NCBI GenBank assembly: GCA_963920575.1
Contig: OY986970.1
Coordinates: 20,839,274 to 20,903,273 of the forward strand
DNA: 64,000 nucleotides
Direction: 5' to 3'
Source: Narthecium ossifragum
Lineage: Eukaryota > Streptophyta > Magnoliopsida > Dioscoreales > Nartheciaceae
The notes beneath the pieces are model-generated. The model was given only the letters and a program-made list of their open reading frames with translations, searched no databases and was not told the origin of the DNA. The stretch's first letter is position 1; each line of letters starts with the position of its first letter. Both the position numbers and the translations under genes were made by a program. This document shows, in pieces, positions 1,995 through 49,800 of this stretch.

Positions 1995-2006
1995 GCTCTG
2001 ATACCA
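1995..2006 (-). other. Primer binding site of copia E
   Basis: TGGTATCAGAGC on the minus strand, complementary to the 3' end of initiator tRNA-Met, three bases inside the LTR end. Known as the usual copia PBS in plants. Confidence 0.9.
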
Positions 2007-2008
2007 AT

Positions 2009-3054
2009 TGAAGGTCCAAAGGAGGGGTGGATTGGACTCTTTTGCGGAAATACAATAGATGAAAACATAGATAGAATGCTAAAATACTAGTATGCTTGTT
2101 TAGATATGAAAACAATAAATAAGGCAAGTAATAAAGGAAAAGAGAGAGTTAAGAGACTTGCACAAGATTTTATAGTGGTTCGGCAAACCTTGCCTACGTC
2201 CACTTCTCTCAAGGGCCTCCTTGAGGTGCCACTACTTGTAATTCTCCCTTACAAGTTTTCCTACCAAGCTTTCGGGTGCTTGGCAACCTTACAAATCCTC
2301 CAACAACTGCTGGAGCTCTCCCTCAAGCTTTCGGGTGCTTGAGAACCTTACAAATCACTCCAAGCAACTCTTGGAGATTATTCACAAAGTCTACTTCATA
2401 ACTTGAAGTAGGTTTACGAAGATTTAAGCTCTCAAAAGAAGACTAAAGCTTGTTACAATGTAAACTAATATCTCCCTTAGTCTTACACTAAGTTTGATGC
2501 ATCTTCCTATATATACTTGAGCTTTAAGACCTCAAAAAGCAGCTCCTAACGGCCACTTAGGTTTTCTGCAACGGCTCTTTAACGGCTAGTTTTCTGACTG
2601 GCGGTCGACCCTCGCATCATCTGCCACATCGTCCGTCGCCATCTTCTTGAGCCGCGGTCGATCCACGCATCGACCTTTAAGCTTCACGGTCGACCGTCAC
2701 ATCGTCCGCAAGGCTCTGTGAGGAAAAACACTTTCCAAGGTCGATACTTCGTTCGACCGTCACTTCTCCTCAACCGAGTCACATAGCCCACGGTCAATCG
2801 GTCCATCGACTGTCGCATCGACCGACCGTCGCCACTTTTATCCTCAGCAGTCGATCCTTCCATCGACCGCCGCTTTCCACGGTCGATCTCTTCATAGCCC
2901 GCAGTCGATTCCATGGTCGACGTCCACATCGTCCGTGGACAATAGCATTTCTAAAATATGAAAGTTAAGCAAGTTTTCAACATATATTGTATCACATATA
3001 TATTTTAACATTTAGGAACATATTAGCATCATCAAAACACCATTAGGACTAACA
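2009..3054 (-). repeat. 5' LTR of copia E
   Basis: Begins TGTTAGTCC at 3054 and ends CCTTCA at 2009 (TG...CA), 1046 bp, immediately followed by the PBS. A TATA-like box (minus strand AGTATATATAGG) lies at 2507-2518. About 85 bp and more upstream of it is a cluster of GGTCGAT/ATCGACC inverted repeats (2603-2922). Confidence 0.88.
2603..2922. repeat. Inverted-repeat cluster in E LTR (GGTCGAT-N6-ATCGACC)
   Basis: At least four 20-bp modules with 7-base half-sites around exactly 6 bases: 2656-2675 (perfect arms, spacer CCACGC), 2739-2758 (ACTTCG), 2792-2811 (CGGTCC) and 2849-2868 (CCTTCC). A fifth, degenerate one lies at 2903-2922. Single GGTCGACC palindromes occur at 2603 and 2687. They sit in U3, upstream of the LTR TATA box. 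Confidence 0.8.
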
Positions 3055-3059
3055 CTCTA

Positions 3060-3765
3060 GACCCTACGTGGTGGTGTAGATATGCATTTCAATTTCACTC
3101 TAAGTGCGATCTGCTGTCAAACAACATGGCAGAGGCATTCAATAAGTTCATTTTGGATGTTAGGAAGATGCCTATAATCACAATGCTGGAGGAGATTAGG
3201 ATAAAGCTAATGACAATGATGAGGGTAAAGAAGCAACAGATGGAAGGAGATAATCAGGATATTTGCCCTACGATACAGAAGAAGATAGAGGATATTAAAG
3301 TGGAGACTAGACACTGGTATTGTGAATTGTTTGGTCAAGAAGAGTTTGAAATAACATGCTAAGATAACAAGCTTGCAGTCAACTTGGCTGAGCAAGTATG
3401 TAGTTGCAGGAAGTGGGGACTGACATGATTTCCTTGTGTACATGCTACTGCATGTATATTTAAGATGAGGAAGAGGCATGAGGACTATCTTACCATGGTG
3501 CAAGAAGGGCACCTACTTGATGGCATACTGACATCACATCAGACCTATCAATGGTCACAAGCTATAGAAGAGGGTTGGTCCTGGCAACATTTTACCCCCA
3601 GCCTATAAGAAACATCATGGAAGACCCAAAACGCTGAGGAGAAGGAGCCCAGAAGTGGGGCCAAGGAGTCATAAGCTCAAGAGGAGACACACAATTGTTA
3701 GGTGCACCAATTGTTGGGAGTGGGGACACGATAGAAGGACCTGCACAAAACCTCCATTGAAGTAC
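3060..3765 (+). pseudogene. MULE (MuDR) transposase, C-terminal fragment
   Basis: Fragment of a Mutator-like transposase. The first readable part (3066-3360) matches the region between catalytic core and zinc finger (LLSNNMAEAFNKFI, then an ETRHWYCELFG-like segment). It is followed by a SWIM finger remnant at 3402-3460 (CSCRKWGLT, stop, FPCVHATAC), where a TGA replaces the codon expected before the IPC/FPC part. A CCHC knuckle (CTNCWEWGHDRRTC) lies at 3703-3744. The catalytic DDE part is missing: its 5' side abuts LTR element E at 3054. Stops at about 3361 and 3430 and frame changes make it non-functional. Confidence 0.8.
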
Positions 3766-3871
3766 ATGTTATCAGGAGTTATGCCAATGGATGATACACT
3801 TTTTGCCGGTGGAATGCTGGTCCCACCCCTTCCTTGGGTCCTAAACGTATTTCTTACTGCTGGTATACTGG

Positions 3872-4687: not shown

Positions 4688-4689
4688 AA

Positions 4690-6033: not shown

Positions 6034-6036
6034 TTA

Positions 6037-6804: not shown

Positions 6805-6869
6805 TTAAAGTAAATCAACAACTCATGATTAAAAGCTTCTAATGTGATGCTTACAGAGGAGCAATCACA

Positions 6870-7295
6870 TCAGAGTCTATGCAGCATCAGAGGAGCTCCA
6901 TGTTGTGGCTGAAGAGTGATAACTGTGTAAGGAGCATGAGTGTATGATGGTGAAAGCTCAAATGAGAAGTGCTGCAGGATCATACTCAAGGCCATCTTGG
7001 CTTCGCTCAGAGCAAAATTCTGACCGATGCAAATCCGAGGACCCCCACCAAATGGAAAGAAGGCCACTTGATCTTTTGATGCCTTAGACACACCTTCGGC
7101 AAATCTTTCAGGTTTAAACTCATGGACATCCTCTCCCCAGTACTCTGGATCATGGTTGATGAGAATTAGTGGCAGGGATAAAGCCACTCCTGGAGGATAA
7201 GTGATCCCACCGAGTTCAACCGTCTTATAAGTTCTTCGGCTAAGGACGGCACCCGGTGGGTATAGTCTCAGCACCTCGTAGAGGATCATCGTCAT
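6870..7295 (-). CDS. CYP72A: CYP72A exon 5 with K-helix and haem loop
   Basis: 426 bp including TGA at 6872-6870. Acceptor ATTGCAG before 7295. Holds EVLR (E387, R390), LYPPGA, FKPERF and [17 protein letters not shown] with the haem-ligand cysteine (469). The C-terminus ends LMLHRL. The Harbinger-like element begins 65 bp downstream. Confidence 0.95.
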
Positions 7296-13200: not shown

Positions 13201-16200
13201 TGATGCATTGGAACGGATTTTTTTTCTTGAAGGAAGCATCTCACCCACGCCTTGGAGCGATCGGTTGGACCCCAAACTGACCGATCGAAACTACGCAGTC
13301 CGATATGTCATCTTGCTTCAAAACTTTTCGTTTCAATTATTGTTTTCCGGATTTTATCCTCTCCTCCAAATCTTCTGTTTTCTTTTTTCTCTTTTTGATA
13401 TATGATCTTGCAGACATGGCCGAATATTATATGCCACCGGGTGATACATCTTGGGATTATCACACGCCGTCGACACATGCACCTGCTTATACTAATGATA
13501 CATATGGTTTCTCAAACCCGACTTATGATTCATATTCCTACTCTTATAGTCTGGATTTTAGAGACCATATATGTGAGGACCCGTACCTCCAACCTGGTCT
13601 GACCGCGTTAGATCGAGGGTCCGGTTTTGTGGTTTGGCTCGGTTGGCCTTGGGATGCGATCGGTTGATCGCATCGCTGTTTTTGACCCCAGTGGCATTTT
13701 GGTAAATATGATCCCTGGTGGTCAGTTTCACACCCGCGTTGCACACACTGCCTTTGATTGATGTATGTGTTTGATTAGAACCTTAAGGATGCTTCCGATC
13801 GGAAGATCGGAGCTCGATCGGGAGAGATCGAATCGGACGACTACGATCGATTCCAGCTTTCTATTTAAGCTCTTTCTTTTCTCTCCCTTCTCTTTCTTTT
13901 CTCTCCTCTCCTCTCCTCTCTCTCTCCTCGTGGGCTGCTGGCTGTAGCTTTTCGCTGCGGCTTTTCGGCATGGATCCGCGGCGATCAGAGTTGAGGATCT
14001 CGTAGATCGCCGGCTTGTTGCTACATGTATGTGTTTCTACCTAATTCCTACGAGTTGGTAACCCAAGGATTGCCTTTTTGTGTTTTCTGGCTATTGTATG
14101 TATTGGAATGCTTTGAATTTCTGTATTCTAGTTTCTTAGCATGCTTAGAAGCTAACTATGGCTTCCTTTCTGTATTCTTTTGGACGAATTCCATATTTTT
14201 GTCGGTTTTTCGACGGGGTTGGTTTCAGATATGATATTTCACGATTTGAGTTTTGGTTTTTTTTGTATGAATAGATTCCCCACCATCAAATAAACCTCCC
14301 TGCAAAGTTTGAATGGATTCCATCGCCGTTTGATAGATCAAATCGAACAAATTCAGCTTTTCGTCGGCTTTTGGGTAATTTGATTTAATTCGAAGGATTT
14401 GATCATCCAATGTTGGATTTCTTAGTGTCATTAGATTCCCCACATCCAGATGCACACCTCAGCCAAATTTGGTTTGATTTCGATACATTTTGATAGATCG
14501 AATCCAAGGAATTGGATCTCAGATACTATTCAACACTATTCACTCTTCTCTGCGAGTATGAAGGATCGATCATTTGGATGAAATGATGGATCTCTTCCTT
14601 TGAAGTGCTTGATAAGTGCATGAAAGTGCACTCTGAATAACCTTATAACCATCTCAATTGCTATATCTTCACCCTTAATCAACTTCTTTAGCACTATTTT
14701 TATAGTATATGTTACTTCACATAGTTGCTTGGAAAATGCAGGAAATTGGAGCTGAAAGAAGCTGAAAAGATTATATGGGTCAACTTCAAAGATTAAACTG
14801 TATCTTTCTAAAACGAACCAAATGATGTGCCATATACCATTGGAAAGCTCTTGAAGTCTACTTTCTGGAGAATTTTACGGTTTATGATTCCGAGTTACGT
14901 AGAGGAAGTTACAACATTTTTCGTACCAGTGCGCAGTGCTGAATGAATAGTGACGGTCGACCGTCAGATCTCACGGTCGACCGTCGCGCTCAAAAATCCT
15001 CACGGTCGACCGTGGAGCCCGAAAATCCTCACGGTCGATCGTCAGATGCTCACGGTCGACCTTGGCATCGACCGTCAGCCTCGGTCAAGGAAAATACTTC
15101 GCAGGGTCGATGCGAAGATCGACCGCAGCTTGTCAAAATAAATTGTGCACCTCACGGTCAACCGTCAGGGTCTCACGGTCGACCGCCAGATCAGCCAAGG
15201 GGGACTTCTTGGACGTTTTTGGAGGCTGTTTTCTGGATGTTTTTCAAAGGAAGAAGATGAAGGAATCTCCATCCATGGCCGAGTAATCCGTGGGCATGGT
15301 GGACGGATAATCTAGCGAGGACTAGGGCTTCTTCTCCAACAATGGTTCATAGTTTTTAATCTTCATTGTTACTCTTTTCTATGTATTGGATCTTCAAATA
15401 TTATTTTTAGATTATAGATTTCTATGTGGATGATTAATATTATGAATCCAGTCATGCTTCTTTTATAATCTTATAATCCCATAGTCTTCTCTTTTGATTC
15501 TCCTACCGAGTCTTGCGAGACCTTTGCTATGCATTGCCCGTAGTGACAGCTGGTATTATATATTCTTAGGGATCTGGTAAGACAAGGTTGGGGCTCTATC
15601 CTAAGAAATCTTTGCTATGCATTGTCGATTGTGAGAGTTGGTATTGTGTATTCTTAGAGATCCGGTTAGATAGAGTTAGGGCTTTGTCCCGACGAACTTT
15701 TGCTGCGCGTTGTCTGTAGTGACAGCCGGTATCGTGTATTCTTAGGTTTGGGTTGGATGAAGTTAGAGCTATAACAAGGAAGAATCAATCATAGGAAGAG
15801 ACATTTATATTTTATCAGATTCATAATTCTATATCTTTCGGTTAAGGTGATTGGGATGTGAATCCCTTAACTGAGTATTATATGAACCATTGAGAAGAGA
15901 AGAACCTAAATCCGAGTGACGTGATTCTTGAAGCCTAGCCTCATTCAAATCTTGATTTCTTTTGTTAACTTTATCTTATCATTACATCTTCGATCTACTT
16001 TCTTAACTTTGACGTTCTTGTTTGTCTTCAATTCATTGTTATTCGTGTTCTGGATCTTTCCTGCTTGTCTCTCTGTGGGTTCGACCTCTCTTATGCTGTA
16101 CTACACCGCGACCGCTGTGCGTGACACATTTGAGCGACATCAAAAAATTGGCGCCATTGCCGGGAGACGGTTCTGAAAAGCACCAGAATCATTAGTTCAC

Positions 16201-19200: not shown

Positions 19201-22200
19201 GAAGATCCTACGGAAGACGTTTAAAGTCGGACAGCAAGCTTATCTATATGACGCACAACTGCATCTCCATCCTGGGAAGTTGCGATCACTCTGGACAGGC
19301 CGCTTTACTGTTAGCAGAGTCTTTGATTATGAGGCTATGGAAGTTGAAGACCCAAAGGATGGGAGGCTGTTTAAGGTGAATGGATAGCGCTTGAAGCCAA
19401 TTCCAGAGAAAGCGGAGCCTAAGGAGCACACCGTTTCTCTCGTAGACCCTGTCTACGAGGGATGATCTTTCTCCTATCTATCATTTCCCTTTTTGATTAG
19501 GTTAGGTTGTTTTCGTTTGTTTGCTTTCATTCTCATTTGCTTTTGTTTGTAATTTTATGTTTTTAGGATGCTTGGACTTCCGTCTTCCTTGATGTAGCTT
19601 TCGGCCACCATGAGGGGCCTTGAGGAGATAATCGATATTCTATCAGGTGGCCTCACTCCTATTTCGATTTCCTATTCTTAGTTATGTCATATATGAAAAT
19701 TCAGCCAACACCCTTCTGCTTATTTACATGATTAGCACACATTGAGGACAATGTGAATTTCAGGTTGGGGGTGTAGGTATGCATGACCTTATGCATGCTA
19801 CCTTATTGAGTTTAGTAGTGTTGAATTGATTATGTTACTAGAAATTGTACTTGAGCTGAAATTTTTATGCTTATTATGCATGTTGCTTTCATATAGATTG
19901 ACCAATACATTGATCGCATGCGTGATAACCTGAACGTATAACATCATGTGATCCACACACGAACACCTTATGTGCAATGGTAATTAAACTCACTAGAGGA
20001 ATGAGCATGCTATTGTCAATCGAGACCATGATTTCAACATTAGCTAGTGTTGAGTATTGCATGCAGACCAAAAGAGAAAAAAAAGTTCTGGAGCTTGATC
20101 AAGCCGTGCCTAAACATTAGCTAGTTTTGAGTATTGGCTGCAGAAAAAAAAAAAGAGAAAAAGTTCTGGAGCTTGATCAAGTTGTGCCTAAACAACTATT
20201 AAGTGATCTACTGAGTAACCGGGTGTTTTTGCCTCAAGAAGCGGGGAGCTCGCGTAAAAAGGTAGAACCACTTATAGCTATAAAAAAAAACTATTAAGTG
20301 TTTTGCTAAGTAACCGGGTCTCTGCGCCTCAAGAAGCGGAGAGTGCTTGCGTAAAAAGGCAAAGTGTCTGATAGTTGAAAAGAAAAAAGAAAGAAAGAGC
20401 ATGTTGTACTTAATGGTGAGTAGAAGTTGCTTCTGTACGTAACATTTATTTGTCACGTCACATGTGTCCTTCTGGATGGTGATTAGCATATATGATGTGT
20501 AGAAGTTGATTTCATATGTTGGTAGTATGTGTATGAGTATAAGAAGTTTTCGTGCTCTATACTATATAAAACACTATTGACATGATAAGGCAGAAATTTT
20601 ATCATGCATGTCTACATCCTTGAACCGTTAGTGTGCTTAATTATATTTTATGCGCTTTGAATTGCTAGAGACTAGCAATAAGCTGGTTGGGGGGTGTGAT
20701 AAGTGCATGAAAGTGCACTCTGAACATCCTTATAACCATCTCAATTGCTATATCTTCGCCCTTAATCAACTTCTTTGGCACTATTTTTATAGTATATGTT
20801 ACTTCACATAGTTGCTTGGAAAATGCAGGAAATTGGAGCTGAAAAAAGCTGAAAAGATTATATGGGTCAACTTCAAAGATTAAACTGTATCTTTCTAAGA
20901 AGAACCAGATGATCTGCCATATACCATTAGAAATCTATTGAAGTCTACTTTCTGTAGAATTTTACGGTTCATGATTCCAAGTTACGTAGAGGAAGTTACA
21001 ACATTTTTCGTACCAGTGCGCAGTGCTGAATGAATAGTGACGGTCGACCGTCAGATCTCACGGTCGACCGTCGCGCTAAAAAATCCTCAGGGTCGACCTT
21101 CAAATCCTCACGGTCGACCGTGGAGCCCAAAAATCCCCACGGTCTCCACGGTCGACCGTCAGATGCTCACGGTCGACCGTGGCATCGACCGTCAGCCTCT
21201 GTCAAGGAAAATACTTCGCAGGGTTGATGCGAAGATCGACCGCAGCTTGTCAAAATAAATTGTGCACCTCACGGTCGACCGTCAGGGTCTCACGGTCGAC
21301 CGCCAGATCAGCCAGGGGCGTAAAACAGGTTTAAACTTAACCCGAGTTTGCTAATCTTTGGACCCTATAAATAGGAAAGTTAGGGTAAGCCAAGGGGGAC
21401 TTCTTGGACGTTTTTGGAGGCTCTTTTCTGGACGTTTTCCAAAGGAAGAAGATGAAGGAATCTCCATTCATAGCCGAGTAATCCGTCGGCATGGCGGACG
21501 GATGATCTAGCGAGGACTAGGGCTTCTTCTCCAACAATGGTTCATAGTTTTTAATCTTCATTGTTAAACTCTTTTCTATGTATTGAATCTTCAAATATTA
21601 TTTTCAGATTATAGATTTCTATGTGGATGATTAATATTATGAATCCACTCATGCTTCTTTCATGATCTTATAATCCCATAGTCTTCTCTTTTGATTCTCC
21701 TACCGAGTCTTGCGAGACCTTTGCTATGCATTGCCCGTAGTGACAGCTGGTATTGTATATTCTTAGGGATCTGGTAAGACAAGGTTGGGGCTCTATCCCG
21801 AGGAATCTTTGCTATGCATTGCCGATTGTGAGAGTTGGTATTGTGTATTCTTAGAGATCCGGTTAGATAGAGTTAGGGCTTTGTCCCGACGAACTTTTGC
21901 TGCGCGTTGTCTGTAGTGACAGCCGGTATCGTGTATTCTTAGGTTTGGGTTGGATGAAGTTAGAGTTATAACAAGGAAGAATCAATCATAGGAAGAGACA
22001 TTTATATTTTATCAGATTCATAATTCTATATCTTCTGGTTAAGGTGATTGGGATGTGAATCCCTTAACTGAGTATTATATGAATCATTGAGAAGAGAAGA
22101 ACCTAAATCTGAGTGACGTGATTCCTGAAGCCTAGCCTCATTCAAATCTTGATTTCTTTTGTTAACTTAATCTTATCATTACATCTTCGATCTAATTTCT

Positions 22201-22811: not shown

Positions 22812-22886
<75 letters not shown>

Positions 22887-28800: not shown

Positions 28801-31800
28801 TATGCCGTTGGAAACTTAAAATATTATTTTAGGGATTCATGTAAGCTTGTAGCCGCATGATCTATAATATTGAGAGAAGTGAGCAAGAGGATAACTAGAG
28901 AAGATTGAAGGTGAAGCTATGGTGGATTGAGTAATCCCTAAGTAATTCATAACTTGGTTCAAATCCCGATCACTTTACTTGCTTTCTTAGATAATTTTTA
29001 GATAATTCAACCCACCTTTTGATTGCTCCGCTTAGGAATCAGTTTCGAGAATTGATTTTACTTTCCAACGTTTTCCCTGTGGATCGACTCCGAACTTCAC
29101 CACTAGTCTACTCCTTAAGATAGTGATAGAATAAGGGTAATATTTTGATTGAAGTTTGTTGCGCTTTAACGACACGTTTGCATTAGATCAGTGGTGCACA
29201 ATGTTGATCCTAACCTTATTTTGATGATGCCAATATACATTAAATGATAAAATATATATTTAATATTTATTACCTCTTTAATTGGAAGTTTTAAATTCAA
29301 TATTTGAGTTATTATTGTACTGACGGTCGATGCATGGATCGACCGTGGAATATGATGATGGAAAGTGAAGAGGCGACGGTCGATCAGAGCATCGACCCTG
29401 AGAAGCATTTGTCACAACATAGGCTAAAGGTCGATCTGGCGGTCGATGGGTGGATAGACCACGGCTCGTGAAGGCTGAGTTTTTGTACCTGACGATCAAT
29501 GTGACAAACGATGCATGGATCGATCGCCAACAACGCGTAGATTATAAAACTAGCCGTTGGAGAGTTGGAGGTGCTTGTTGAGCTGGTTGAAGGCCTGATA
29601 TAAGTAGTGTTTTGTTGTAAACTTATCAGAACTATTATTGATATTTTTTAGATCATTTGAGCATATCGAAGAAAGAGTTTACTACTCATTTCCTTTGAGC
29701 TACAACTTTTATAAATCTTTTTCGAGTGTGAAGAAGTACATTGAGAGTAATCCAACAGCTGTTGGCCATGATTGTAAGGTTACCATGCACCCGGAAGCTT
29801 GGAGAAAAAGCTTGTAAAGATTTACAAGTAGTGGAACCTCAAGGAGTACCTTGAGAGAAGTGGACGTAGACAAAGAGTTGGGTCGAACCACTATAAAATC
29901 GGTGCTATCTCTCTAACCCTTCTTTCATATATTATTGCATGCTAATTTACTTTTGTTTCATCTCATTTATAAGCATTTAAGATCTTCTCTACTTGATTTT
30001 TTTCATTAATCTAGTTTTTCAAAAAGAGTTCAATTCACCCCTCCCCCCTCTTGGACCTTCAATTGGTATCAGAGCTAAGTCTCTATTTTAATGGTGTAAC
30101 AACCCTTAGAGGATCCAATCTAGAGATCGAAAACGTAGAGGGACAAGCTACCAATATGCCACCATACTTCAATGGATCGAACTATACATATTGGAAGACC
30201 AAGATGATATATTCATTCAATCATTGGATTATGAAGCTTGGTTGGTAATAGAGGATGAACCCTATGTCCCTATGAAAATAGTTAAAGGTAAAGAAGTCCC
30301 AAAAACAAAGAGTGACTACACCCCAATCGATCTCGAAAACCATCAAACAAATGCCAAGGCCAAAAGCTTTCTATTTTATGCCGTTAGCCCTAGTGAATTC
30401 AATAGTGTCTCTACATGAAAATTAGCTCCAAGGCCAAAAGCTTTCTATTTTATGCACTTAGCCCTAGTGAATTCAATAGTGTCTCTACATGCAAATCAGC
30501 ATAAGAGATATAGGACAAGCTTGAGGTTACATACGAAAGAACTAGCCGAGTTAAAGAGTCTAGAATTAGTATGCTTGTACATGAGTATGAACTCTTTTGC
30601 ATGATGAATGATGAACCATTGGTGAGACGTTTACACGTTTTACTAGCATATTTAATGTGCTTGAATCTCTTGGAAGAGTTTATGCTAACGATGAAGTTGT
30701 GAGAAAGATACTTAGGTGTCTGCTGAAGTCATGGGATCCTAAAGTGACGGCGATTGAAGAAGCCAAGGATCTATCCAAGTTGTCACTCGATGAGCTCATG
30801 GATTCCTTCATGACCTATGATATGAACTTGAAGAGAAAGAACGAAGAAGGAGATAAAAAGAAGAAGGGGGTTGCTTTCAAGTCATCTAGCAAAGACTCAT
30901 CCGTTTCAAGTGAAGGAGATGACGATGAAGAATTGACGATGATATCAAGAAGAATTCAAAAGATCTTCAAGCGCCAAGGAGGAAAGAAATTCTTCAAGAA
31001 GAACTTCCCCAAAGGTGAAAAATACAATGCTACTTCTTCTAACTCAAATGAAATCATATGTTATGAGTGTAGGGAGCCCAAACACATCAAGTTTAATTTT
31101 CCTCAACTCAAGAAGCCTTCAAACAAAGAGTTCAAGAAAAAGAAAGCAATGATGGCTACTTGGGGAGAAAGTGATGTGGAGACCTCATCCGATGAAGAAG
31201 AATAAGAGGTAGCCAACATATGCTTAATAGCACACGGATATGAGGAAGAAGAGGAAAATGAGGTAGAAGATGAACTTGCATTTGAAGAACTTTTTGATGC
31301 TTACCATGCTTTAGGAAATGACTTCAAGTTCCTTAAAAAGAAATATTATGCTACATGCAAGGACTTGAAGATATTAGAGGAAGAGAAACTGGATGTCATG
31401 CATAGGATTGACATATTAGAAAAGGAGAACAAATGCATGCTAGGAAGGACATCTAGTGTTGACCATGCTAAACTTGAGAAGGAACTCAAGGACACTCAAT
31501 TTGAATGTATCACATTGAAAAACACTACTAATGATATGAAAAAGGCACTCATCACTTTAAGGAAATCGAAGAGAGATCTCACTCTTTAGGTTGATGACTT
31601 AAAGATCACTCTATCAAAATTCTTGAAGAGTAGAGTCAAACTTGATGAGATCCTTGATAGCCAAAGGAGCTCCTTAAACAAGGAATTGGCTATAATCCTA
31701 GGAAGATGAACAACTAAAAGAAGACTAACTTTGTTAAAACTTCTTCTCAACCTCCTAAGGTAGCACAAGCACTCACTTGTCACTATTATTGCAAGGTAGG

Positions 31801-34800: not shown

Positions 34801-37800
34801 TTATAACATACATGTAGGCAAAATGTCAATTACATGTGACAACACTAGTGCATAAGCCTTTCACGGAATCCCATCCTACATTCTAGAACCAAGCACATAG
34901 AAATTCAACATCATTTCGTTCGTGATCACACACAAAAAAGAGATATTGCACTTGAATTTGTTAACACCGAGCATCAAATTGTGGATATTCTAACCAGGCC
35001 CTTGTGTGAAGACATGTTTCTATATCTCCTAAGGGAGCTTGGGATGTCCAATGGATGTCCAAAATGAAAGGCTAAACGAAAAAGGTATGGTCACATCTTT
35101 ATCTGCTTTTTTATACAATATCCTACTTGAGTGCTAAATTTTGGTTAATTGAGTGATTTTCATGATTGATGAGTTGATTTTAGCTCATAATATTTAGTTA
35201 CATGTGTATGCAAAGTTTTTTGATGTTTTGATTTAAAAATGATTTTCAATTGAATTTCAAAATTCATTTTCTGGAATTGACGGTCGATCCAGACTTCCTG
35301 ACGGTTGTCCGTGAGTACACTTTTGTTTTCACATATCGCGCTTGACGGTCGACCGCCAACTTTTTAGGATCGACCGCCATAGATCGTGTGACAACTTAAA
35401 TGAGGGCATTTTACTCATTTTCACGTCTCCCTTTATAAACTCCCCACCCGATCAAACATACATCTTCTCCTCTGGTTCGACCGTGCCCTAGCCCCTCTCC
35501 ATCGACCGCAACTCCTCTGGTTCGACCGAGCTCTAATCCTCTCCTCTCAAAACGCTAACCTAGCCACGCACCATGCCTCACATCATGAATGTCGGACCTC
35601 CTCCACCCGAGGAACCAAGTCAAGCCGGGAAGAGGAAGCATGCAGTAGAAAAGAGAAAGGCAGAAATTAAGAATACCAAAGGTTCAGTCGGAGGGTCCGC
35701 ATCCATTCCTTCATCTACTCCTTCCTACGATGATTACTTCTTCCTAGACAAGGATAGGTATAACTCTTGGCCCGAGTTTAAGGATAAATTTGTAGTTTCG
35801 GGTAGAGTTCTTCAGTTACTCATAGGAAAGGTGGGTAGGTAGAGAATACCTAGGGGCACGACATTTAGTTGAAATTTTTTTCACTGATATGGGTTCGAAG
35901 AAATTCTTAGAGATGCCCCAATATATGTATCTAGAAATGGTTCGTTATTTTTATTGCAACATTAATGAAGATATTGATGATGAAGAATATGTGACCATTG
36001 GTAGCTATGTTTATCGAAATGAAGTGAAGATTACTTTAGAATGGTTAAATGAGATACTAAATGCACCAAATCAACGGGAGTGCACCTTTTTTTACTTCAT
36101 ATGAGGATCTCCCAAGATTTGATAGGGATAAATAAGGGAGAAGGGCAATCCTTAGACCTAGTCAAGTTGATAAAATTCCTATAGAATTAAATAACCTACA
36201 CCAAAACTATAGGGAGCTTGCCCACTTTGTAGGAACAAATCTTTTTCCTAAGCTTGGCCACCATGATCACTTGAAACCCATTCATGCCTATGTTCTTTCA
36301 TGCATGGTTAGGACGAAGCCTCTAAACCTAGGTTATATCATTATCAAAGAGATGCTTAAGCTTACGGCTAGGCAATCACTACCTTTTGGAGAACTACTAA
36401 CCAAAATTTTCCAAGCCCATAGCCTCCGCCTAGCCAATGATGAAAGAAAACCCCTTTCTCAACCTTTCAATAAATCCACCTACAAAAGGATGATGACCGC
36501 CAAGCGAGCCTTAGGCCTTATTGTTCCTGATATTAGTAGTGATGAGGAAGAAGAGCATCAAGAAGAGCATGATGAGGAAAACTTAGGGGAAGAAGAAGGT
36601 GAGCCTAGATTTCAAGGTGAATCCTCCCATAGCCGAGCTCGTCGCACCACAGCACAAAGACTTGATGAGCTAGAAGCAAGATTGGAAAGGATGGAAGTCA
36701 ATCAAGGTGACATCAAGACTTCCCAAGCAGAGATCACGGAAGATCAAGCGAAGATGTCCAAGCAACTCGAAGACATTTTTACCTACATCAATAAGGAATT
36801 TTCACCTTCCACACTTTCAGTTGATTGATAAATCCCCAGCCGTGTTCCTTCTTTTTGATGATGCCAAAGGGGGAGAAAAAATTATGATGAATGTTGAAAA
36901 CAATTGCTCTACATTTCATTTCATATTTTTACTATTGTATTTTGGAAAACCTTGTTTTTGAAATGAAATTCTTGTAATCCAAAGTTTTCCGAATGTTGTT
37001 GAATGGAAGTGTTGTAATGCAAGTGTTGGAATCTTTTGAAGAAAGGCAATGTTGTTGGATATTGTTAATCTTTTGATCATAATACAATGTTGATGGATAC
37101 TGTTAAAATGTATTGGTACATAATTTTTTATCTCCAATATCCATATGAACTATTCCATGATAGATAGCCTATATTCACTTTTTTTTTAAAGAAGTGAACA
37201 TGCTAAAATCTAAGTTATCTTGTCATTATATCTTAAAATTAATTTTTCCTATCCTTTTAGTGATATATGACTTATGTGCATCCTTAGTATTCAATTTAGA
37301 ACTCTTTTTAAGAAAGGAATGGGTGCGTAGATTAAGGAGGAGCATTAATATTTTATCATCACATTTAAAAGGGTTGTCATCATCAAAAAGGGGGACATTA
37401 TTGATCCTAACCTTGTTTTGATGATGTCAATATACATTAAATGATAAAATATATGTTTAATATTTATTACCCCTTTAATTAGAAGTCTTAAATTCAATAT
37501 TTGAGTTATTATTGTGTTGACGGTCGATGCATGGATCGACCGTGGGAATGCGATGGTCAATCCATGGATCGACTGTGGGGTTGCACGGTGGATGCGCCAA
37601 ACTTGGCAAAATGAAATATTGGCTCAAGGTCGATCGGAGCATCGACCCTGTTAAGCCATTTTCTTTACAAAGCCTCACGGTCGATGGACCGGTCGACCGT
37701 GGAGTTTGGATATTGTGATTTTAAATGTTGTAGGCTCACAGACGATCCGACGGACGATGCGGCGTTCGACCGTGGAATATGATGATGGAAAGTGAAGAGG

Positions 37801-40800
37801 CGACGGTTGATCGGAGCATCGACAGTGGGAAGCATTTTTCACAACAGAGGTTCACGGTCGATCTGGCAGTCGATGGGTGGATTGACCGCGACTCGCGAAG
37901 GCTGAGTTTTTGTACCTGACAGTCGATGTGGCGGGCGATGCATGAATCGACAGCCAGTAATGCGCAGAGTAAAAAACTCTTCGTTGGAGAGTTACAAGGA
38001 GTTGTTGGAGGTGTTTGTTGAGCTGGTTGAAGGCCATATATAAGTTGTCTTTTGTTGTAAACTTGCCAGAACTATTATTGATATTTTTGAGATCATTTGA
38101 GCAAGTCTAAGCAAGAGTTTACTACTCATTTCTTTTGATCTACAACCTTTATAAATCTTCTTCGAGTGTGAAGAAGTACATTGAGAGTAATCCAACAGCT
38201 GTTGGCTGTGATTGTAAAGTTACAAAGCACTCGGAAGCTTGGAGGAAAAGCTTGTAAAGATTTGTATGTAGTGGACCTCAAGGAGGACCTTGAGAGAAGT
38301 GGACATAGACCAAGAGTTGAGTCGAACCACTAGAAAATCGGTGTTATCTCTCTTACCCTTCTTTCATATATTCTTGCATACTAATCTACTTTTGTTTCAT
38401 CTCATTTACAAGCATTTAAGATCTTCTCTACCTGATTTTTTCAGTAATCTAGTTTTTCGAAAAGAGTTTAATTCACCCCCCCTCTTGGACTTCCACGTAA
38501 GTCCTATTCTCTGCTGTTTATGGAGTGCAGAATGTTCGGGGGAGGTGGTTGTAGTGGCAAATTCTGGCTGAGGTTAATAACACTGGGCTACCGCATGTGA
38601 TTATGGGAGATTTTAATGTGACTATTGCCCCATATGAGAAGAGAGGTAGACCATTCAAGCTTAAGTCTTCGTCTAAGGAGTTTTTTGAATTTATCGCTTC
38701 AAACAACCTAGTGGATGTTGGTTTTGTTGGGAGCACGTTTACTTGGTGCAATGGTCTCCCGGGCAACAGAAGGATTTCCGAAAGACTTGATAGAGTCCTA
38801 TGTACAACTTTAGCAAAGAACGTACTCGGATGGCTGGAGGTCAAACACCTGAGCAGACAAGGATAAGATCTATGAGGACCTGTCCCTCTACCCCTGTGGC
38901 TCGTTGTAGACCGCAAGAGCAATTTGGTAAATTGCGCCTTGTTGGTTTGTTTCACACCCGCGTGTGCACACACTGGCCTTGTATGTGTTAGTGTTTGTTT
39001 AGAATGGCTAGTTGGACCCGGGATCAGAAGATCCCAACTCGGGCGCGCGGAAGCTTACCTTTGGGCAGTTGACGACCCTCGAGCGATCGATTGCTCCTTG
39101 GAGCGATCGGTCGGACTCGTGAGCAAGTCAGTGGGTTTTGATCCGGGGCGAGAACGATCGATCGCTCATTGGAGCGACCGATCGGACTCGAGTCGGTGGC
39201 TTTTCTGCTTCGCGAGGACGGCCGCCGTTGGCCGTCGCTCTCTCATGTCAGAGGAGGAGGACTTTCCCTCTCCTCCCCTCACTTTTTCCCCCTTCCCCCG
39301 GCTTTCCCCTTCCCCTTTCCCTCCTTTTCTTCCCCTCCTCTTCCTCCTTCTCCTCCTTTCTTCTTCCTCCTTTCTTCTCCTGAGAGCCCTGTTTTTCCCC
39401 TGTTTCCGGCAGTCATCTTACTCACCTCCGTTCTCCCTCCTCCGACCATCATTTTCGGTGTTCTAAGGCTCGTTGGATCCGTGGTAACGAGAGGAAGATC
39501 CCTGAAGTGGTTTGGAAGCTTGTTGGTGATCAACTCGCGAGGAATCAGCCGAGGAAAGCGCAGCTAGGTAGGGTTATACCTACTGATGTTTATTTCGGGT
39601 TTTCTCTAGATCTAGCCGTTGGATCTTGTTGATCCTTGTTTTGTTGGATTCCGTATGCCTATTAGAATTACTGATATAAGTTTCATGTTATTTGGTTGAG
39701 ATTTGAGTAGGTTTTATACATGATTAAGCTCGGATTTCAGGTTTTCTGCTGTTCTTGAAGAACAGCCGGCTTACGGCGAGTTTTCCGGCCGACGTGTAGA
39801 TGATCTTGGTTTTTGATAAACATAAGAGTTGTATATCTCTTCGTTAGCTTTCTATGCCATCTTCTTTCGTAATTTTCCAATTGGTTTACGATTTGTTATG
39901 AATTGTTTGCTGGAGGGCTGCGTTGCAGAAATTAAATTGGTAAGTGAGATGATTAGCGGTTTGATTTGTATTTTCCCGTTAATCTACCCGTTGGATGATT
40001 ATGAATTTTGGATATATTGATCCTGGTATATACACCTACTGGTGACTAAGTTGGATATAGAATCCAACGTCGTTTAGACATTGGATCGATGGGATCAATT
40101 AGCCCCTAAGTAGAGGTTTTGGGTGTTTGAATATAATATTATATTTTGGAATATAATATTATATTGTTACTGTTCATTCAGCGGTTTTCGGGGTTGCTTC
40201 CCGTTGCAGGAGTTCGCGGTTGACGGTCGTGGTACCGTCGTAATGCCGGGACACGCTGCGGATCTGCTGGTAGCGGTTGGTAGTACCGTTGCAGCGATCC
40301 AGTTGACTTATATGATGTTTGACATACTGTTGCATGCTTTGGTTCTTATATGTGTATGTCATAGCATGCATTTGTTGTTGTGTGCATTAGTTGCAATGGT
40401 TAGGGCGGGAGTAATCTTTGGGTCGCCGTCCCGAGGCTGGAAGCTCGGACTTAGCCCTAGGACCGGGGTTGGGTAGTTTGGACCCTGTTTGAATTGTAGT
40501 GTCCAGTCAAACATGATGATAGGCTTAGATGACTGGTTCACTTGTTGCTTGATGATTGTATAGGTCGTGTCGGCCTCGAGTCGGATCTGAGGTGTAGCCG
40601 GTGTCCGGCGTTCTTAAACTCTTGTGTAGAGGAGTTACCTACTCAGTGGTGTCCTTTCCCACCAAACAATGTTCTGTGTACTGTTGAGAGTTAGCAGTGT
40701 TGTTTCCTGCTACTGAGTGTGACCCGACGTGTGACCAACCCGGCTGGAAGATCATGATCGGGGTCTCAGGGACACGCGGTGGGGTTATGGGACCCCTGAA

Positions 40801-43800
40801 TACACCCAGGTTCTACTTGAGGGCGACACTGTTGCATTTCCCTCTTCCTTCTGTGTGTCGTAGTGTAGATCCCTACTGAGCTTAGTGCTCACTCCTACCC
40901 GGGCTGCGTTTTGCAAGTGCAGGCGTCATTTCTTCTTCCTTGGCCCCTACAGGGCAGTTGGTTGGCGGTGCGGTGATGAGTGCATGAAAGTGCACTCTGA
41001 ACAGTCTTATAATCATCTCAATTGCAAGATTATTATCCTTAATCAACCTCTTTATTACTATTTTTATATCTATATGTTGCTTCACATAGTTGTTTGAAAA
41101 ATGCATGAAATTGGGGCTAAAAGAAGCTGAAAAGAGTATATGGATCAACTTCAAAAATTAATATGTACCTGCTCATGAAAAACCAGATGATGTGCCATAT
41201 ATGGTTGAAAAGCTCTTGAAGTCTAGATTCTGGAGAATTTTACGGTTCGTGATTCCGAGTTTACTAAAGGAAGTTACGGCAATTTTAGTACCGATAGCGC
41301 AGTCTGAATGGCAGAACAGAAAATACGCTGGAAGTCCGATCGATCCGCCGATCAATCGGACTACGCAGAAACGTGACAGAACATGTTTTTTTCAGCCACA
41401 AGGGATCCGATCGATCCCTCCATCCCTCCTAAGGGGTCCGATCGATCGGACACCTAAAGTCCGATCGATCGGACTCGGGAATAGCCAAAAACAGCTGATT
41501 TTTACGCAACCGATCGATCCTACACCCATACACCGATCGATCGGACTTGGGAATTAAAGGTTGACAGAATGTATGTTTTCTAGAGGAACACAGTTCGATC
41601 GATCCATCCATCGATCGGACTCGGGAATAGCCAGAGACGGAGGATTTTTACGAAACCGATCGATCCAACACCCTTAGTCCGATCGATCGGACCCGAGCGA
41701 AGTCAGAAGTTGAAGTTTTAATGCGAGGGATCGATCCGACACCCTGGGAGGGATCGATCCGACTTTTCCAGTGAAGAAAACCTACGGTTCAGATCTAATC
41801 CGTAAATGGAGAGATTTGGGGCTATAAATTGGATACTTAGGGTTAATCAAAGGGGAGTTCTTGGATGTTTTTGGAGGCTTTTTTCTGGACTTTTTCAAGA
41901 GGAAGAAGATGAAGGAATCTCCATCCATGGCCGAGTAATCCGCGGGCATTGCGGACGGATGATCTAGCGAGGACTAGGGTTTCTTCTCCAACAATAGTTC
42001 ATAGTTTTAATCTTTATTGTTAAACTCTTTTCTATGTATTGGATCTTCAAATATTATTTTCAGATTATAGATTTCTATGTGGATGATTAATATTATGAAT
42101 CCAGTCATGCTTCTTTCATAATCTTATAATCCCATAGTCTTCTCTTTTGATTCTCCTACCGAGTCTTGCGAGACCTTTGCTATACATTGCCCGTAGTGAC
42201 AGCTGGTATTGTATATTCTTAGGGATCTGGTAAGACAAGGTTGGGGCTCTATCCCGTGAAATCTTTGCTATGCATTGCCGATTGTGAGAGTTGGTATTGT
42301 GTATTCTTAGAGATCCAGTTAGATAGAGTTAGGGCTTTGTCCCGATGAACTTTTGCTGCGTGTTGCCTGTAGTGACAGCCGGTATCGTGTATTCTTAGGT
42401 TTGGTTGGATGAAGTTAGAACTATAAAAAGGAAGAACCAATCGTAGGAAGAGACATTTATATATTTTGTTAGGTTTATAATTCCATATCTTTCGGTTAAG
42501 GTGATTGGGATGTGAATCCCTTGACTGAGTATCATATGAACCATTGAGAAGAGAAGAACCCAAATCCGAGTGAAGTGATTCCTGAAGCCTAGCCTCATTC
42601 ACATCTTGATTTCTTTCGTTAACTTTATCTTACTATTACATCTTCGATCTATTTTCTTAACTTTTTACGCTCTTGATTGTTTTCGATACATTGTTATCTG
42701 TGTTTCTGGATCTTTCCTGCTTGTCTCTCTGTCGGATTCGACCTCTCTTATGCTGTACTGCACCGCGACCGCTGTGCGTAACACATTTGAGCGACATCAA
42801 AAATTGGCGCCGTTGCCGGGGAGACGGTTCAGAAAAGCGCCAGAATCATCAGATCACGATGATTGAAGACATCGATGGCGGTAACTTTGTTCCCTTTTCT
42901 TTTTATTTTTATTTCTTTTTTTTTAGTTTTCTTTATTTTCTTTTTAGTTTTATTTTGATTTTTCGTTTTATTTTTACTTGCTAAAAAAAACTGAAAAAAA
43001 AGAGGATGGAAAATGAATTATATCAATACTATTTGAGATCATGTTATATGAAGTCGAGAGATGGAATGTCTATAACAACAGTTCGTAAGAAAAGTATATA
43101 CGAATTGAGCTTGGAGAATAGAACGAGTCATGTTTCTGTCAATGAGTATCTTCCTACTTATATGATTAACGCATTGAAAAGAAAGATTTCATCCTTTGCA
43201 CAAAAGAATGATGAGACATTATGTGATGCATGGCAACGATTTAAAAGTTCAATAGCTTCATGCCCTCAACATGGTTATCCTATTTGGCGGTTAGTTAGCT
43301 ATTTTTTTTATGGATTAACTGAGCATGAACGTCAAACTCTTGAAACAAGATGCAGGGGTGAGTTTTTGCAGATTGATCCTGATGAAGCTATGAAGCACTT
43401 GGATGAGCTTGCTGAGACGACTCATACACAGACAGTTCCGGAGCGTTGGGATGATTATCATGGCCATATCGATGCCAAATCCTACAAGCATCCCAATGTC
43501 GCCTCAACGTCCAACAACTATCTACAACACAATGAGCCTTTCTACTCTTATCCTAGTGCTTATGATGATTATGTGCATGATACTTATGTTGCTACTTCCC
43601 ATGATGTGGATGTTGATGAGCCTAACACGTATGATGCATGTGTCGATGACTTTAGTTCTTGTGATGCATACATCCCTGATTTTAATGCTTATGGTGCACA
43701 TGCTCAAGATGTTCATGTTGATGATGTATATGCTCATGACTGTAGTGCCAGTGTGCATGTGCAAAATTCTAGCCTTACTGATGCACAAGCCATCGATTCT

Positions 43801-46800: not shown

Positions 46801-49800
46801 CCATGATTTCAGCATTAGCTAGTGTTGAGCATTGCATGGAGAAAAAAAAAAAAGAAAAAGTTCTGGAGCTTGATAAAGCTGTGCCTAAACAACTAGTAGG
46901 TGATCTACTAAGTAATCGGGTGTTCTTGCCTCAGGAAGCGGGGAGCTCGAGTAAAAAGGTAGAACCACTGAAAAAAAAACTATTAAGTGTTTTGCTAAGT
47001 AACCGGGTCTCTGCGCCTCAAGAAGCGGAGAGTGCTCGCGTAAAAAGGCAAAGTGTCTGATAGTTGACAAAAAAAGAGAAAAAACAAGAAAGACCATGTT
47101 GTACTTAAAGTGCGAGGGTTGGATGATTGGTCATGAAGATAGTAGTGTGTTTGGACTAATGGTGGGTAGAAGTTGCTTCTGCTCGTAACATTTATTTGTC
47201 ACGTCACATGTGTTCTTCTGGATGGTGATTAGCATGTTTAATGTGTAGAAGTTGATTTCATGTGTTGGTAGTATGTGTATGAGTATAAGAAATTCCCATG
47301 CTCTGTACTGCATAAAACATTATCGACTTGATAAGGTAGAATTTTTATCATGCATTTCTACATCCTTGAACCGTTAGTGTGCTTAATTATATTCTATGCG
47401 CTTTGAATTGTTAGAGACTAGCAATAAGCTGGTTGGGGGGTGTGATGAGTGCATGAAAGTGCACTCTGAATAGTCTTATAATCATCTCAATTGCTAGATT
47501 ATTATTCTTAATCAACTTCTTTATTACTATTTTTATATCTATATGTTGCTTCACATAGTTGTTTGGAAAATGCAGGAAATTGGGGCTAAAAGAAGCTGAA
47601 AAGAGTATATGGATCAACTTCAAAAAATAATTTGTACCTTCTCCTGAAAAACCAGATGATGTGCCATATATGGTTGGAAAGCTCTTGAAGTCTAGATTCT
47701 GGAGAATTTTACGGTTCATGATTCCGAGTTTACTAGAGGAAGTTACGGCAATTTTAGTACCGATGGCGCAGTCTGAATGGCAGAACAGAAAATACGCTGG
47801 AAGTCCGATCGATCCGCCGATCGATCGGACTACGCAGAAACGTGACAGAACATGTTTTTTTCAGCTACAAGGGATCCGATCGATCCCTCCATCCCTCCTA
47901 AGGGGTCCGATCGATCGGACACCTAAAGTCCGATCGATCGGACTCGGGAATAGCCAAAAACAGCTGATTTTTACGCAACCGATCGATCCTACACCCATAG
48001 TCCGATCGATCGGACTTGGGAATTAAAGGTTGACAGAACGTATGCTTTCTAGAGGAACACAGTTCGATCGATCCATCCATCGATCGGACTCGGGAATAGC
48101 CAGAGACGGAGGATTTTTACCGATCGATCCAACACCCTTAGTCCGATCGATCGGACCCGAGCGAAGTCAGAAGTTGAAGTTTTAATGCGAGGGATCGATC
48201 CGACACCCTGGGAGGGATCGATCTGACTTTTCCGGTGAAGAAAACCTACGGTTCAGATCTAATCCGTGGATGGAGAGATTTGGGGCTATAAATTGGATAC
48301 TTAGGGTTAATCAAAGGGGAGTTCTTGGACGTTTTTGGAGGCTTTTTTCTGGACTTTTTCAAGAGGAAGAAGATGAATGAATCTCCATCCATGGCAGAGT
48401 AATCCGCGGGCATGGCGGACGGATGATCTAGCGAGGACTAGGGTTTCTTCTCCAACAATGGTTCATAGTTTTAATCTTTATTGTTAAACTCTTTTCTATG
48501 TATTGGATCTTCAAATATTATTTTCAGATTATAGATTTCTATGTGGATGATTAATATTATGAATCCAGTCATGCTTCTTTCATAATCTTATAATCCCATA
48601 GTCTTCTCTTTTGATTCTCCTACCGAGTCTTGCGAGACCTTTGCTATACATTGCCCGTAGTGACAGCTGGTATTGTATATTCTTAGGGATCTGGTAAGAC
48701 AAGGTTGGGGCTCTATCCCGTGAAATCTTTGCTATGCATTGCCGATTGTGAGAGTTGGTATTGTGTATTCTTAGAGATCCAGTTAGATAGAGTTAGGGCT
48801 TTGTCCCGATGAACTTTTGCTGCGCGTTGCCTGTAGTGACAGTCGGTATCGTGTATTCTTAGGTTTGGTTGGATGAAGTTAGAACTATAAAAAGGAAGAA
48901 CCAATCGTAGGAAGAGACATTTATATATTTTGTTAGGTTTATAATTTCATATCTTTCGGTTAAGGTGATTGGGATGTGAATCCCTTGACTGAGTATCATA
49001 TGAACCATTGAGAAGAGAAGAACCCAAATCCGAGTGAAGTGATTCCTGAAGCCTAGCCTCATTCACATCTTGATTTTTTTCGTTAACTTTATCTTACTAT
49101 TACATCTTCGATCTATTTTCTTAACTTTTTGCCCTCTTGATTATTTTCGATACATTGTTATCTGTGTTTCTGGATCTTTCCTGCTTGTCTCTCTGTGGGA
49201 TTCGACCTCTCTTATGCTGTACTGCACCGCGACCGCTGTGCGTAATGTTGTATTTGAACTCCCCCCCTCTCCGAGGATATGTATATTAAACCTTTTTGAG
49301 TTCATAAATCTGTGGTTCGATGTAGTTAAATTATTGCATCTTTTATTTGGGGGTGTTTTTGGTGAACTGTTAGGGAGACCAATAGGTTAGAGGAAACCCT
49401 CGCCAGCTTTGTTTTTCGCGTTTTGTAAGTTCCGGTTCGCGTCGCCCGCCCCGGTTGGGCTTTCGCGGGTCGGGGCGCGACAAGATCACTGCCCTTTAGT
49501 CCATTCAGCGGGTAGTGAGCGGAGATGCACCGATGACGCAGGCCTCTTCAGACTATGACAACACTGGTTGGAGGAGCACCGGTTCCAAGCTCTAGTTAGG
49601 TGCGTTTGGAGCAGGAGGGAAGAGGCTGAAGGACAACATCCTCAGTCTGTACATGACGGAGGAGAATCAAGGCTTACAAATTGAGGGGGAAATAGAACTT
49701 CGTGCCTTGGAGAAGCAACATGCAGTTGTTGTCACCCTACAGGAAAGATTAGTGGTGCAGAAGCTGAGGAAGGAATGGGTGGTTGCAGGGGATCAAAATT

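Follow-up and report, generated by a model that had tools for sequence, protein, structure and literature searches.

A CpG-rich cassette of paired GGTCGAT half-sites common to copia and gypsy LTRs of Narthecium ossifragum

Elements and cassette blocks

The window, which is the whole stretch of 64,000 nucleotides of Narthecium ossifragum DNA analysed here, carries LTRs of copia and gypsy elements, and gypsy X and gypsy B were assigned as gypsy by Pfam. The repeated unit, called module below, is a half-site GGWCGAY together with its reverse complement. Modules are gathered in cassette blocks, and the number per LTR block (LTR blocks only, overlapping modules counted) is 10 in A, 9 in F, 5 in E, 6 in B1 and 11 in a further LTR block, L034.

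LTR A (1995..3050, approximate ends) belongs to a minus-strand copia element and adjoins the PBS junction CA/ATTGG/TATCAGAGC. Its cassette block (2603..2960, minus strand) was counted at no more than 4 mismatches in 14 positions. Two of its modules lie 51 bp apart (2688..2758, plus strand), and the 31-bp linker between them (2708-2738) reads on the plus strand, antisense to the element. The preliminary description of this region, which begins at 2603, had listed copia E and F, gypsy B1 and B2 and the solo LTR C1; the list was incomplete, for copia LTR A at this start also has the module.

LTR E (29203..30056) and LTR F (37402..38490), both on the plus strand, have a common LTR sequence and one copia domain set between them, and they are probably the 5' and 3' LTRs of a single copia element (29203-38495). 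The Sirevirus-type 5' LTR junction given above for A is exact in E also, and a polyC-rich integrase signal, judged by eye, is found near the LTR end (CACCCCTCCCCCCTC in E, CCACCCCTCC in A). The F junction reads AT-TATTG, the start of E reads TGTTG, and two PPT-like GGGGGA tracts were present within 601 bases surrounding the F junction. The block of E (29323..29530, plus strand) has a module pair at 29378/29429 with an antisense linker at 29398-29428, and the block of F (37520..37957, plus strand) has antisense linkers at 37648-37678 and 37825-37855.

The 5' LTR of gypsy B1 (14610..16142, plus strand) contains a block at 14955..15195 (plus strand) composed of CACGGTCGACCGTG repeats and an N6 module at 15105-15124. 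Its module pair 51 bp apart (15054..15124, plus strand) encloses a linker at 15074-15104 in sense orientation. The block of the B1 3' LTR (21042..21312, plus strand) has the corresponding pair at 21171-21241 with the linker at 21191-21221.

The CpG o/e of the A block is 1.59 against 0.35 for the remaining LTR, and all seven blocks measured showed 1.33-1.59 against 0.35-0.77. A TATA box lies 53-87 nt downstream in five of these seven blocks of the window, namely A (87 nt), F (79 nt), B1 3' (53 nt), B2 5' and B2 3'. The E block shows two TATA-like matches, one at 12 nt and one at 179 nt, and no TATA was found downstream of the B1 5' block or the X block. Because the X block is without TATA and lies about 900 bp into its LTR, the term "U3 enhancer" is least secure in gypsy X.

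Spacing rule of the GGTCGAT module

The preliminary description stated that inverted half-sites GGTCGAT and ATCGACC are separated by exactly 6 bases, and this was confirmed in the 64-kb window, with six occurrences at k=6 and none at any other k of 0-20. A systematic sample of 200 kb gave four at k=6 and none at k=0-5. In the genome (379 Mb) GGTCGAT-N6-ATCGACC occurs 18,660 times (reversed control 0), while k=7-20 pooled gave 1,586 matches (control 58). A gypsy pol codon stretch, GGTCGATTTTGAGATCGACC, is a known contaminant of the genome count, with 587 places or about 3% of the 18,660. The sharp N6 spacing is genuine and holds across the genome. Loci L002-L004 are duplicates of L001 and were excluded from every count.

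Among the 50 genome matches of k=7-20 listed first, 43 have spacer 18, which is 6+12, and therefore the half-sites follow a lattice of 12 bp. Exact inward offsets from GGTCGA to TCGACC up to 21 bp were only 2 (n=27) and 14 (n=24), and the only direct GGTCGA offset below 18 was 12 (n=9), both in the window with L001 and L005-L028. The triple GGACGAT-N5-GGTCGAT-N6-ATCGACC was found at 931+1,020 = 1,951 genome places (control 0). Half-sites in the cassettes are thus seen overlapping (GGTCGACC), with N6 or with N18, and additional direct half-sites follow after N5. A degenerate (CGAT)n microsatellite was considered as origin, but neither the GG/CC ends nor the exclusive k=6 would be expected of it.

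Distances between modules were 32, 42 and 51-53 bp, which may be possible helical phasing. We do not claim such phasing, because GATCGATC arrays (22-24, 49 and 59 bp among others) deviate from it.

The wider core CGAT-N6-ATCG, proposed before as common to all these LTRs including B2 and C1, did not survive the counts. It occurs 14 times in the window, in A (2659, 2852), C1 (13657, 13796), B1 (15108), E (29328, 29381, 29509), F (37525, 37631, 37936) and B2 (41600, 47810, 48069). The same pair also gives 12, 10 and 9 occurrences at k=2, k=10 and k=17, respectively, and the sample has additional peaks at k=2, 16, 17 and 21. Therefore the N6 rule is valid for the GGTCGAT half-site and the bare core was ruled out as a common rule; its lack of specificity for k=6 is largely due to the many GATCGATC units in arrays of the B2 type. 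GATCGAT-N6-ATCGATC was found 11 times in sample and window, of which ten are in B2-like contexts by eye and one in L011.

The B2 5' LTR has an array of another type (TCCGATCGATCGGA) at 41341..41765 (plus strand) with an N6 variant at 41597-41616, and the B2 3' LTR has the same type at 47805..48230 (plus strand) with N6 variants at 47807-47826 and 48066-48085. This palindrome array differs from those of GGTCGAT-N6-ATCGACC, and no linker similarity to copia was found in the B2 5' LTR array. The C1 module, GATGCGAT-CGGTTG-ATCGCATC (13653..13674, no strand assigned), is in a gypsy-X-type LTR fragment outside the cassette block, and the C1 sites are not in any cassette. B2 and C1 are thus outside the cassette group.

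Linker and homology between families

The families had been described as unrelated, which is true only in part. LTR flanks of B1 and B2 are common at 84-93% identity, and because of this and the common LTR sequence of E and F neither pair is unrelated; B1 and B2 as unrelated families were ruled out by these flanks. Between lineages, eight LTR-flank queries taken from copia, gypsy X and gypsy B gave no match at 1e-4 to flanks of either other lineage.

Between modules at 51-bp spacing, copia and two gypsy lineages carry a similar 31-bp linker; in an inverted-repeat element of about 1.1 kb the likeness is weaker. With respect to transcription this linker runs antisense in the copia LTRs and sense in those of gypsy. 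Over its inner 21 nt, identity was 0.708 for copia-gypsy B (column-permuted null 0.261, reached in 0/3000), 0.526 for copia-gypsy X (null 0.254, 0/3000) and 0.444 for X-B (null 0.225, 3/3000), against 0.19-0.24 on the wrong strand, with the linker strand in the pair listing and in this test assigned by eye. This test used 17 of the 18 module pairs 51 bp apart; L016, unassigned to a lineage, was excluded, as its modules have the spacing and the linker is absent. The match of the inverted-repeat element was weaker, 10-26/3000, a figure to be doubled because strand was chosen per row, and L037 had no 51-spaced pair of its own. The linker pattern occurs at 642+656 = 1,298 places genome-wide (control 0).

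When half-sites were masked and both strands tried, four of ten copia-gypsy B pairs exceeded all 150 shuffles, all antisense (for example, score 41 vs 18.1 ± 2.5). The other six were under the shuffle maximum: the four E/F pairs stood about 3-4 SD up, the two from A2 at most about 2 SD. Only one of 15 copia-X pairs was above the shuffle maximum, and none of five pairs with B2 and none of five with Y. The similarity of the linker is shown as strong for copia-gypsy B and moderate for gypsy X. The preliminary description had considered the modules to be without shared flanks, which the linker contradicts for the pairs 51 bp apart; shared flanks or a flat spacer distribution had been named there as evidence against the motif, and flanks are partly shared through the linker while spacers peak at k=6.

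Proposed explanation and its rivals

The control regions of LTRs are generally held to change within their own family and can seldom be aligned across families. On balance we think it probable that the modules repeat within a single cis-regulatory cassette, homologous and portable, which sits on unrelated transposable elements, with half-sites on a 12-bp lattice, and which was exchanged between families. The best reading is a CpG-rich LTR cassette, putatively homologous between families, with a putative regulatory function. The cassette would be an array of paired half-sites, in which 51-bp-spaced modules are linked by the 31-bp linker. It may have been swapped among element families in either orientation, and a candidate host sequence-specific DNA-binding factor would read the half-sites as dimers or multimers, so that the array may serve as enhancer of the elements.

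Of the three readings offered earlier, the site of a dimeric host regulator fits best, though only as a candidate, and a hairpin kept by compensatory change is not supported. Among 74 distinct modules, arm positions were changed on one side only in 81 cases and on both sides in five, so that just two of 86 changed positions were two-sided and still paired. The count used 74 of 101 modules, others being removed as duplicates or for more than 3 mismatches, and overlapping modules have half-sites in common and are not independent. Both arms tolerate the same main substitutions. One-sided changes and equal substitutions mean half-site behaviour and not a compensatory hairpin, and the conserved unit is best read as a putative half-site for a protein, not as paired RNA.

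The palindromes may instead act as RNA, with transcribed arrays forming hairpins which are diced to small RNAs, a role that has been proposed for Sirevirus LTRs of maize. RNA of five array stretches folded below all 200 dinucleotide shuffles (z -2.9 to -7.6), and in maize small RNAs are in excess over the palindrome clusters of Sirevirus LTRs according to parts of PMC10760457. But any palindrome array may fold in this way as by-product, the arm changes do not keep pairing, the third half-site GGACGAT is retained with no pairing partner, and the opposite orientation of the linker in copia and gypsy means that transcripts differ. We regard this explanation as unlikely. A neutral minisatellite, captured by several families and multiplied through slippage and gene conversion without serving any function, is rather improbable to us. 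It would agree with the tandem arrays of 51+53 = 104 bp period in copia and X, with the varying copy number between E and F, and with the unlike arrays which sibling LTRs B1 and B2 carry at the corresponding place. However, half-sites have identity of 0.83-1.00 at P1-right, P2-left and P2-right (P1-left only 0.54-0.90), compared with 0.42-0.71 for linkers and 0.17-0.43 for P2 spacers, whose length is fixed, a contrast which is partly circular because modules were selected by half-site match; the P1 spacer, at 0.53-0.75, is not free. The 12-bp lattice is also found again across families, and in copia and gypsy B the blocks lie near a TATA box.

Very improbable is independent convergence, in which the families acquired sites for one host dimer separately, without exchange of DNA. 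The half-site is common while flanks and P2 spacers are unlike, as it would predict, but a similar 31-bp linker at equal 51-bp spacing in copia and gypsy is hard to converge on, unless a factor binds the linker as well. Convergent capture, the third earlier reading, was half right, since the modules move as part of a larger block, which is homologous and has a common linker.

Returning to the portable cassette, a fixed half-site grammar common to copia, gypsy and an inverted-repeat element would imply that regulatory modules cross transposon classes, and a 26-bp module would serve as a probe for a factor switching many plant transposons on or off. A more speculative and doubtful extension takes the cassette as a cis "key" that moved among copia, both gypsy lineages and an inverted-repeat DNA transposon because its lattice is read by one trans-acting factor, which could be an activator of the host or an anti-silencing protein of TE-encoded or domesticated origin. 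If true, unrelated transposons would have a single on-switch spread via LTR exchange.

Comparison with known systems

The nearest known case is the repeated motif (RM) of Sirevirus LTRs, described in the passages of Bousios et al. 2010 (PMC2829016) used here as Sirevirus-specific palindromes in high copy number, which have a CGG-CCG core, cluster upstream of TATA and form CpG islands, at least 8 copies per element being the criterion. The Vitis RM, CGGTCGACCG, is a perfect palindrome present in gypsy B1 here. A palindrome that has dyad symmetry and the CGG-CCG core, as in Table 3 of that paper, is present as ACGGTCGAT-N6-ATCGACCGT and CGGTCGACCG, and a CpG-rich block stands shortly upstream of TATA in A, F, B1 3' and B2 5' and 3'. 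In contrast to the RM, the cassette is mainly split by exactly 6 bp, follows a 12-bp lattice and has a common linker at 51-bp spacing. It is also in gypsy X, gypsy B1 and the inverted-repeat element, which puts in doubt the published Sirevirus-only status of palindromic boxes.

In maize, Sirevirus LTRs have palindrome clusters with strong RNA folding, as here, and their motif, CACCGGACNNNGTCCGGTG, differs from GGTCGAT-N6-ATCGACC. The maize palindrome is also reported as the commonest motif in structured Helitrons (both cited through parts of PMC10760457), a precedent for sharing between superfamilies. LTRs of the gypsy element Del have variable 5' CpG islands (Cruz et al. 2014, PMC4029996), a CpG-rich and fast-changing block as here; a search for "palindrom" in the available text of that paper found none, and neither the half-site grammar nor sharing with copia is in its passages. 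VANC, a TE-encoded anti-silencing protein, binds tandem repeats in noncoding sequence of VANDAL elements (Hosaka et al. 2017, PMC5735166, in part). The likeness is in short repeated motifs of noncoding transposon parts, variable among relatives; the difference is that VANC is TE-encoded and described there for VANDAL, and the site here is common to several element classes.

GGTCGAT-N6-ATCGACC, or its sharing between copia and gypsy, was not found in the literature surveyed by titles and abstract openings, which is weak evidence of absence. The motif had been called undescribed, which needs to be narrowed: the palindromic Sirevirus LTR kind of cassette is already known from the cited parts of PMC2829016, and what appears new is the N6 and 12-bp grammar, together with its presence in gypsy LTRs and in an inverted-repeat element.

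Spacing of the half-sites

The module is a pair of inverted half-sites, GGTCGAT and ATCGACC, around a spacer of 6 bases (N6; k, spacer length). In the 64-kb window (G000:C8:20839274-20903273), CGAT-N6-ATCG occurred at 14 sites, and the full arms occurred six times at k=6 and at no other k from 0 to 20. A 200-kb sample from fixed coordinates on ten contigs had four full-arm sites at k=6 and none at all other k up to 24, and its five first-order Markov randomisations had none. One of the four (GGTCGATTTTGAGATCGACC, L010 8948) is a mimic of the module, read by eye as a run of codons within a gypsy polyprotein. In the 379.4 Mb of genome searched, full arms at k=6 had 18,660 places (reversed control 0), including 587 of this codon stretch, against 1,586 places for k=7-20 pooled (control 58). 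From k=6 to k=20 the genome-wide distribution is not flat, and the N6 peak proposed in the preliminary description is borne out.

Exact half-sites were compared in the window and in the fetched stretches L001 and L005-L028. Inward GGTCGA and TCGACC were found at offset 2 (27 cases, the perfect palindrome GGTCGACC) and offset 14 (24 cases, the N6 form), and at no other offset up to 21. Direct half-site offsets below 18 were solely 12 (9 cases); larger ones, such as 21 (10 cases) and 51 (12 cases), were present too. Among the k=7-20 matches, the first 50 distinct ones listed included 43 with k=18 (6+12) by hand count, and the triple GGACGAT-N5-GGTCGAT-N6-ATCGACC had 931+1,020 places genome-wide (control 0). 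Therefore, the half-sites follow a 12-bp lattice, and N6 is one step of it.

Other palindromes were also observed. Those of GATCGATC were very frequent, with 246 in sample and window together (L008, L012, L014, L020, L021, L023), and TCCGATCGATCGGA had 5,120 places genome-wide (control 2). Further forms were AGGATCGATCCT (L013), AAGATCGATCTT (L022) and TTGGATCGATCCAA (L010). Another repeated palindrome, ATCGGTAGT-N2-ACTACCGAT with variants, was located in L011 1762-1850, L023 2336-7310 and L018 548-1350.

Carrier elements

LTR A is copia, on the minus strand. E and F, also copia, are probably the LTR pair of a single element: a primer site follows E, and gag and integrase matches and a reverse transcriptase (RT) match below cutoff lie between them. 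The stretch from the copia RT to the 3' LTR F includes a frame with a sub-threshold Transposase_32 match (36136-36828), at the place that an env-like frame would have in a Sirevirus. B1 and B2 are gypsy elements with LTR flanks 84-93% alike. X, a third LTR type, was taken as gypsy because the L029 polyprotein is flanked by two X cassette clusters that are 7.6 kb from each other. The families had been described as having no common LTR ancestry, which fails for B1/B2 and, on the best reading, for E/F, but agrees with the searches among copia, X and B: of eight flank queries (copia A and E, gypsy X, gypsy B), none had a match in another lineage's flanks at E 1e-4.

Two proposed carriers were not retained. 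LTR fragment C1 belongs to type X, and both its CGAT-N6-ATCG sites fall outside the X cassette block (the array of modules). B2 has a different array, AGTCCGATCGATCGGACT, from that of B1, CACGGTCGACCGTG, despite their similar flanks. The gypsy-B LTRs at 14610-16142 and 40974-42781 hold these different arrays at the same place, and L022 (323-1240), with a gypsy-B flank, holds both array types within one LTR, which points to array replacement within this lineage.

Both gypsy B elements also matched the plant snoRNA snoR71 at 16529-16635 (-) and 43171-43277 (-), opposite to the gag frame; the bit scores were 56 and 54.9, against a gathering score of 40, and the likeness reflects either capture of a snoRNA or chance. 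Between transposons at 6870-8119 (-), two cytochrome P450 fragments, each in its own frame, represent a host gene or what is left of one.

The first 50 listed sites of one contig were grouped by hand into 17 clusters, which represent the beginning of that contig and not a random sample, and 15 were fetched. Gypsy-X-type LTRs held eight of the 15 (including L031, itself the X query, and L030 and L036 by partial matches) and copia E/A-type LTRs five (L035 and L040 on weak similarity of the 5' flank). One was held by an element of ~1.1 kb with long inverted termini (L037), and L038 had no class. This inverted-repeat element has relatives in L044-L046 (L045 arms 308 nt, 91.6%) and is dispersed, with at least 42 matches (40 scored of 396 candidates).

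Shared linker

In copia, gypsy X and gypsy B, modules are often 51 bp apart, and a 31-bp linker then connects them. Spacing of 53 bp was found in copia and X, and 32, 42, 52 and 54 bp were present too. We compared the inner 21 positions of 17 linkers, eight from copia, six from X and three from B and without that of L016, with strand set by eye. Identity was 0.708 for copia-B and 0.526 for copia-X, reached by none of 3000 column permutations, and 0.444 for X-B, reached by 3 of 3000; null means were 0.225-0.261 and wrong-strand identity was 0.19-0.24.

In an independent test, all half-sites were masked and both strands relative to transcription were compared with 150 shuffles per pair. Four of ten copia-gypsy B pairs exceeded every shuffle (F2 against L022, 41; shuffle maximum 27), all antisense; therefore the cassette runs against transcription in copia and along with it in gypsy. 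The four E and F pairs with gypsy B were ~3-4 SD up, under the shuffle maximum, and two A2 pairs were not raised beyond ~2 SD. None of five pairs with B2 and none of five with Y exceeded the null. Only one of 15 copia-X pairs (F2-X2) did, so the copia-X link rests on the 17-linker comparison with its strand set by eye.

The linker-derived motif SCTCTGTNNNGNAAAA had six exact matches in 305,726 bases, all in such arrays; of nine one-mismatch matches, two were in such arrays and two adjoined GATCGATC palindromes. The linker pattern had 642+656 places genome-wide (control 0). Four linker pairs in three of four copies read of the inverted-repeat element had identity of 0.42-0.48, a level that 10-26 of 3000 permutations also attained, and this likeness is suggestive only. 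A linker-like stretch, CCTCTGTCTCGAGAAA, adjoins GATCGATC palindromes at L020 ~7796 (-) and L027 ~4761 (+), which hints that the linker may accompany another array type too. That the modules are not simple copies holds for the P2 spacers (identity 0.17-0.43), but the similar linker of modules 51 bp apart speaks against it.

Possible function

The cassette is probably a portable binding site with putative DNA half-sites. Arm changes were one-sided in 81 cases and two-sided in 5, counts which are not independent since modules overlap and are related; the main substitutions were alike in both arms. A third half-site without pairing partner recurs, and the spacer of the palindromic module P2 is free in sequence and fixed in length, while that of P1 is less free (0.53-0.75). 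The one-sided changes, the third half-site and the P2 spacer favour DNA half-sites and agree with the dimeric site suggested at first. The arrays fold strongly as RNA, which counts against such a site and would suit palindromes acting as an RNA hairpin, but with arm changes so largely one-sided we consider the hairpin unlikely. A neutral minisatellite appears somewhat more doubtful still, and pure convergence highly improbable; each explanation was judged by itself, and they overlap in part.

Cassette blocks are CpG-rich (o/e 1.33-1.59 vs 0.35-0.77), in part because of the half-sites themselves. A TATA box lies 53-87 nt downstream of the block end in A, F, the B1 3' LTR and both B2 LTRs; for E the reading was ambiguous, and no TATA box was found in B1 5' or X. 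The occurrence of the cassette in either orientation and at variable position would fit a putative enhancer.

Comparison with known systems

The motif was at first thought to be undescribed. Neither the N6 form nor its sharing by copia and gypsy was described in the titles and abstract openings searched; the palindromic LTR motif itself is known. According to Bousios et al. (2010, PMC2829016), Sirevirus LTRs have repeated palindromic motifs whose core is CGG-CCG, including CGGTCGACCG of a Vitis element. These motifs form CpG islands ahead of the TATA box and are termed Sirevirus-specific. Martin et al. (2023, PMC10760457) report the maize palindrome in Helitrons too, and Ty3 elements generally without obvious structural peak. 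A and E have the Sirevirus primer-site junction and a polyC tract, so the copia cassettes seem to be additions to this Sirevirus kind of motif. Unlike the Sirevirus motif as published, the cassette here is carried by gypsy and inverted-repeat elements too, and these carriers contradict the published exclusivity.
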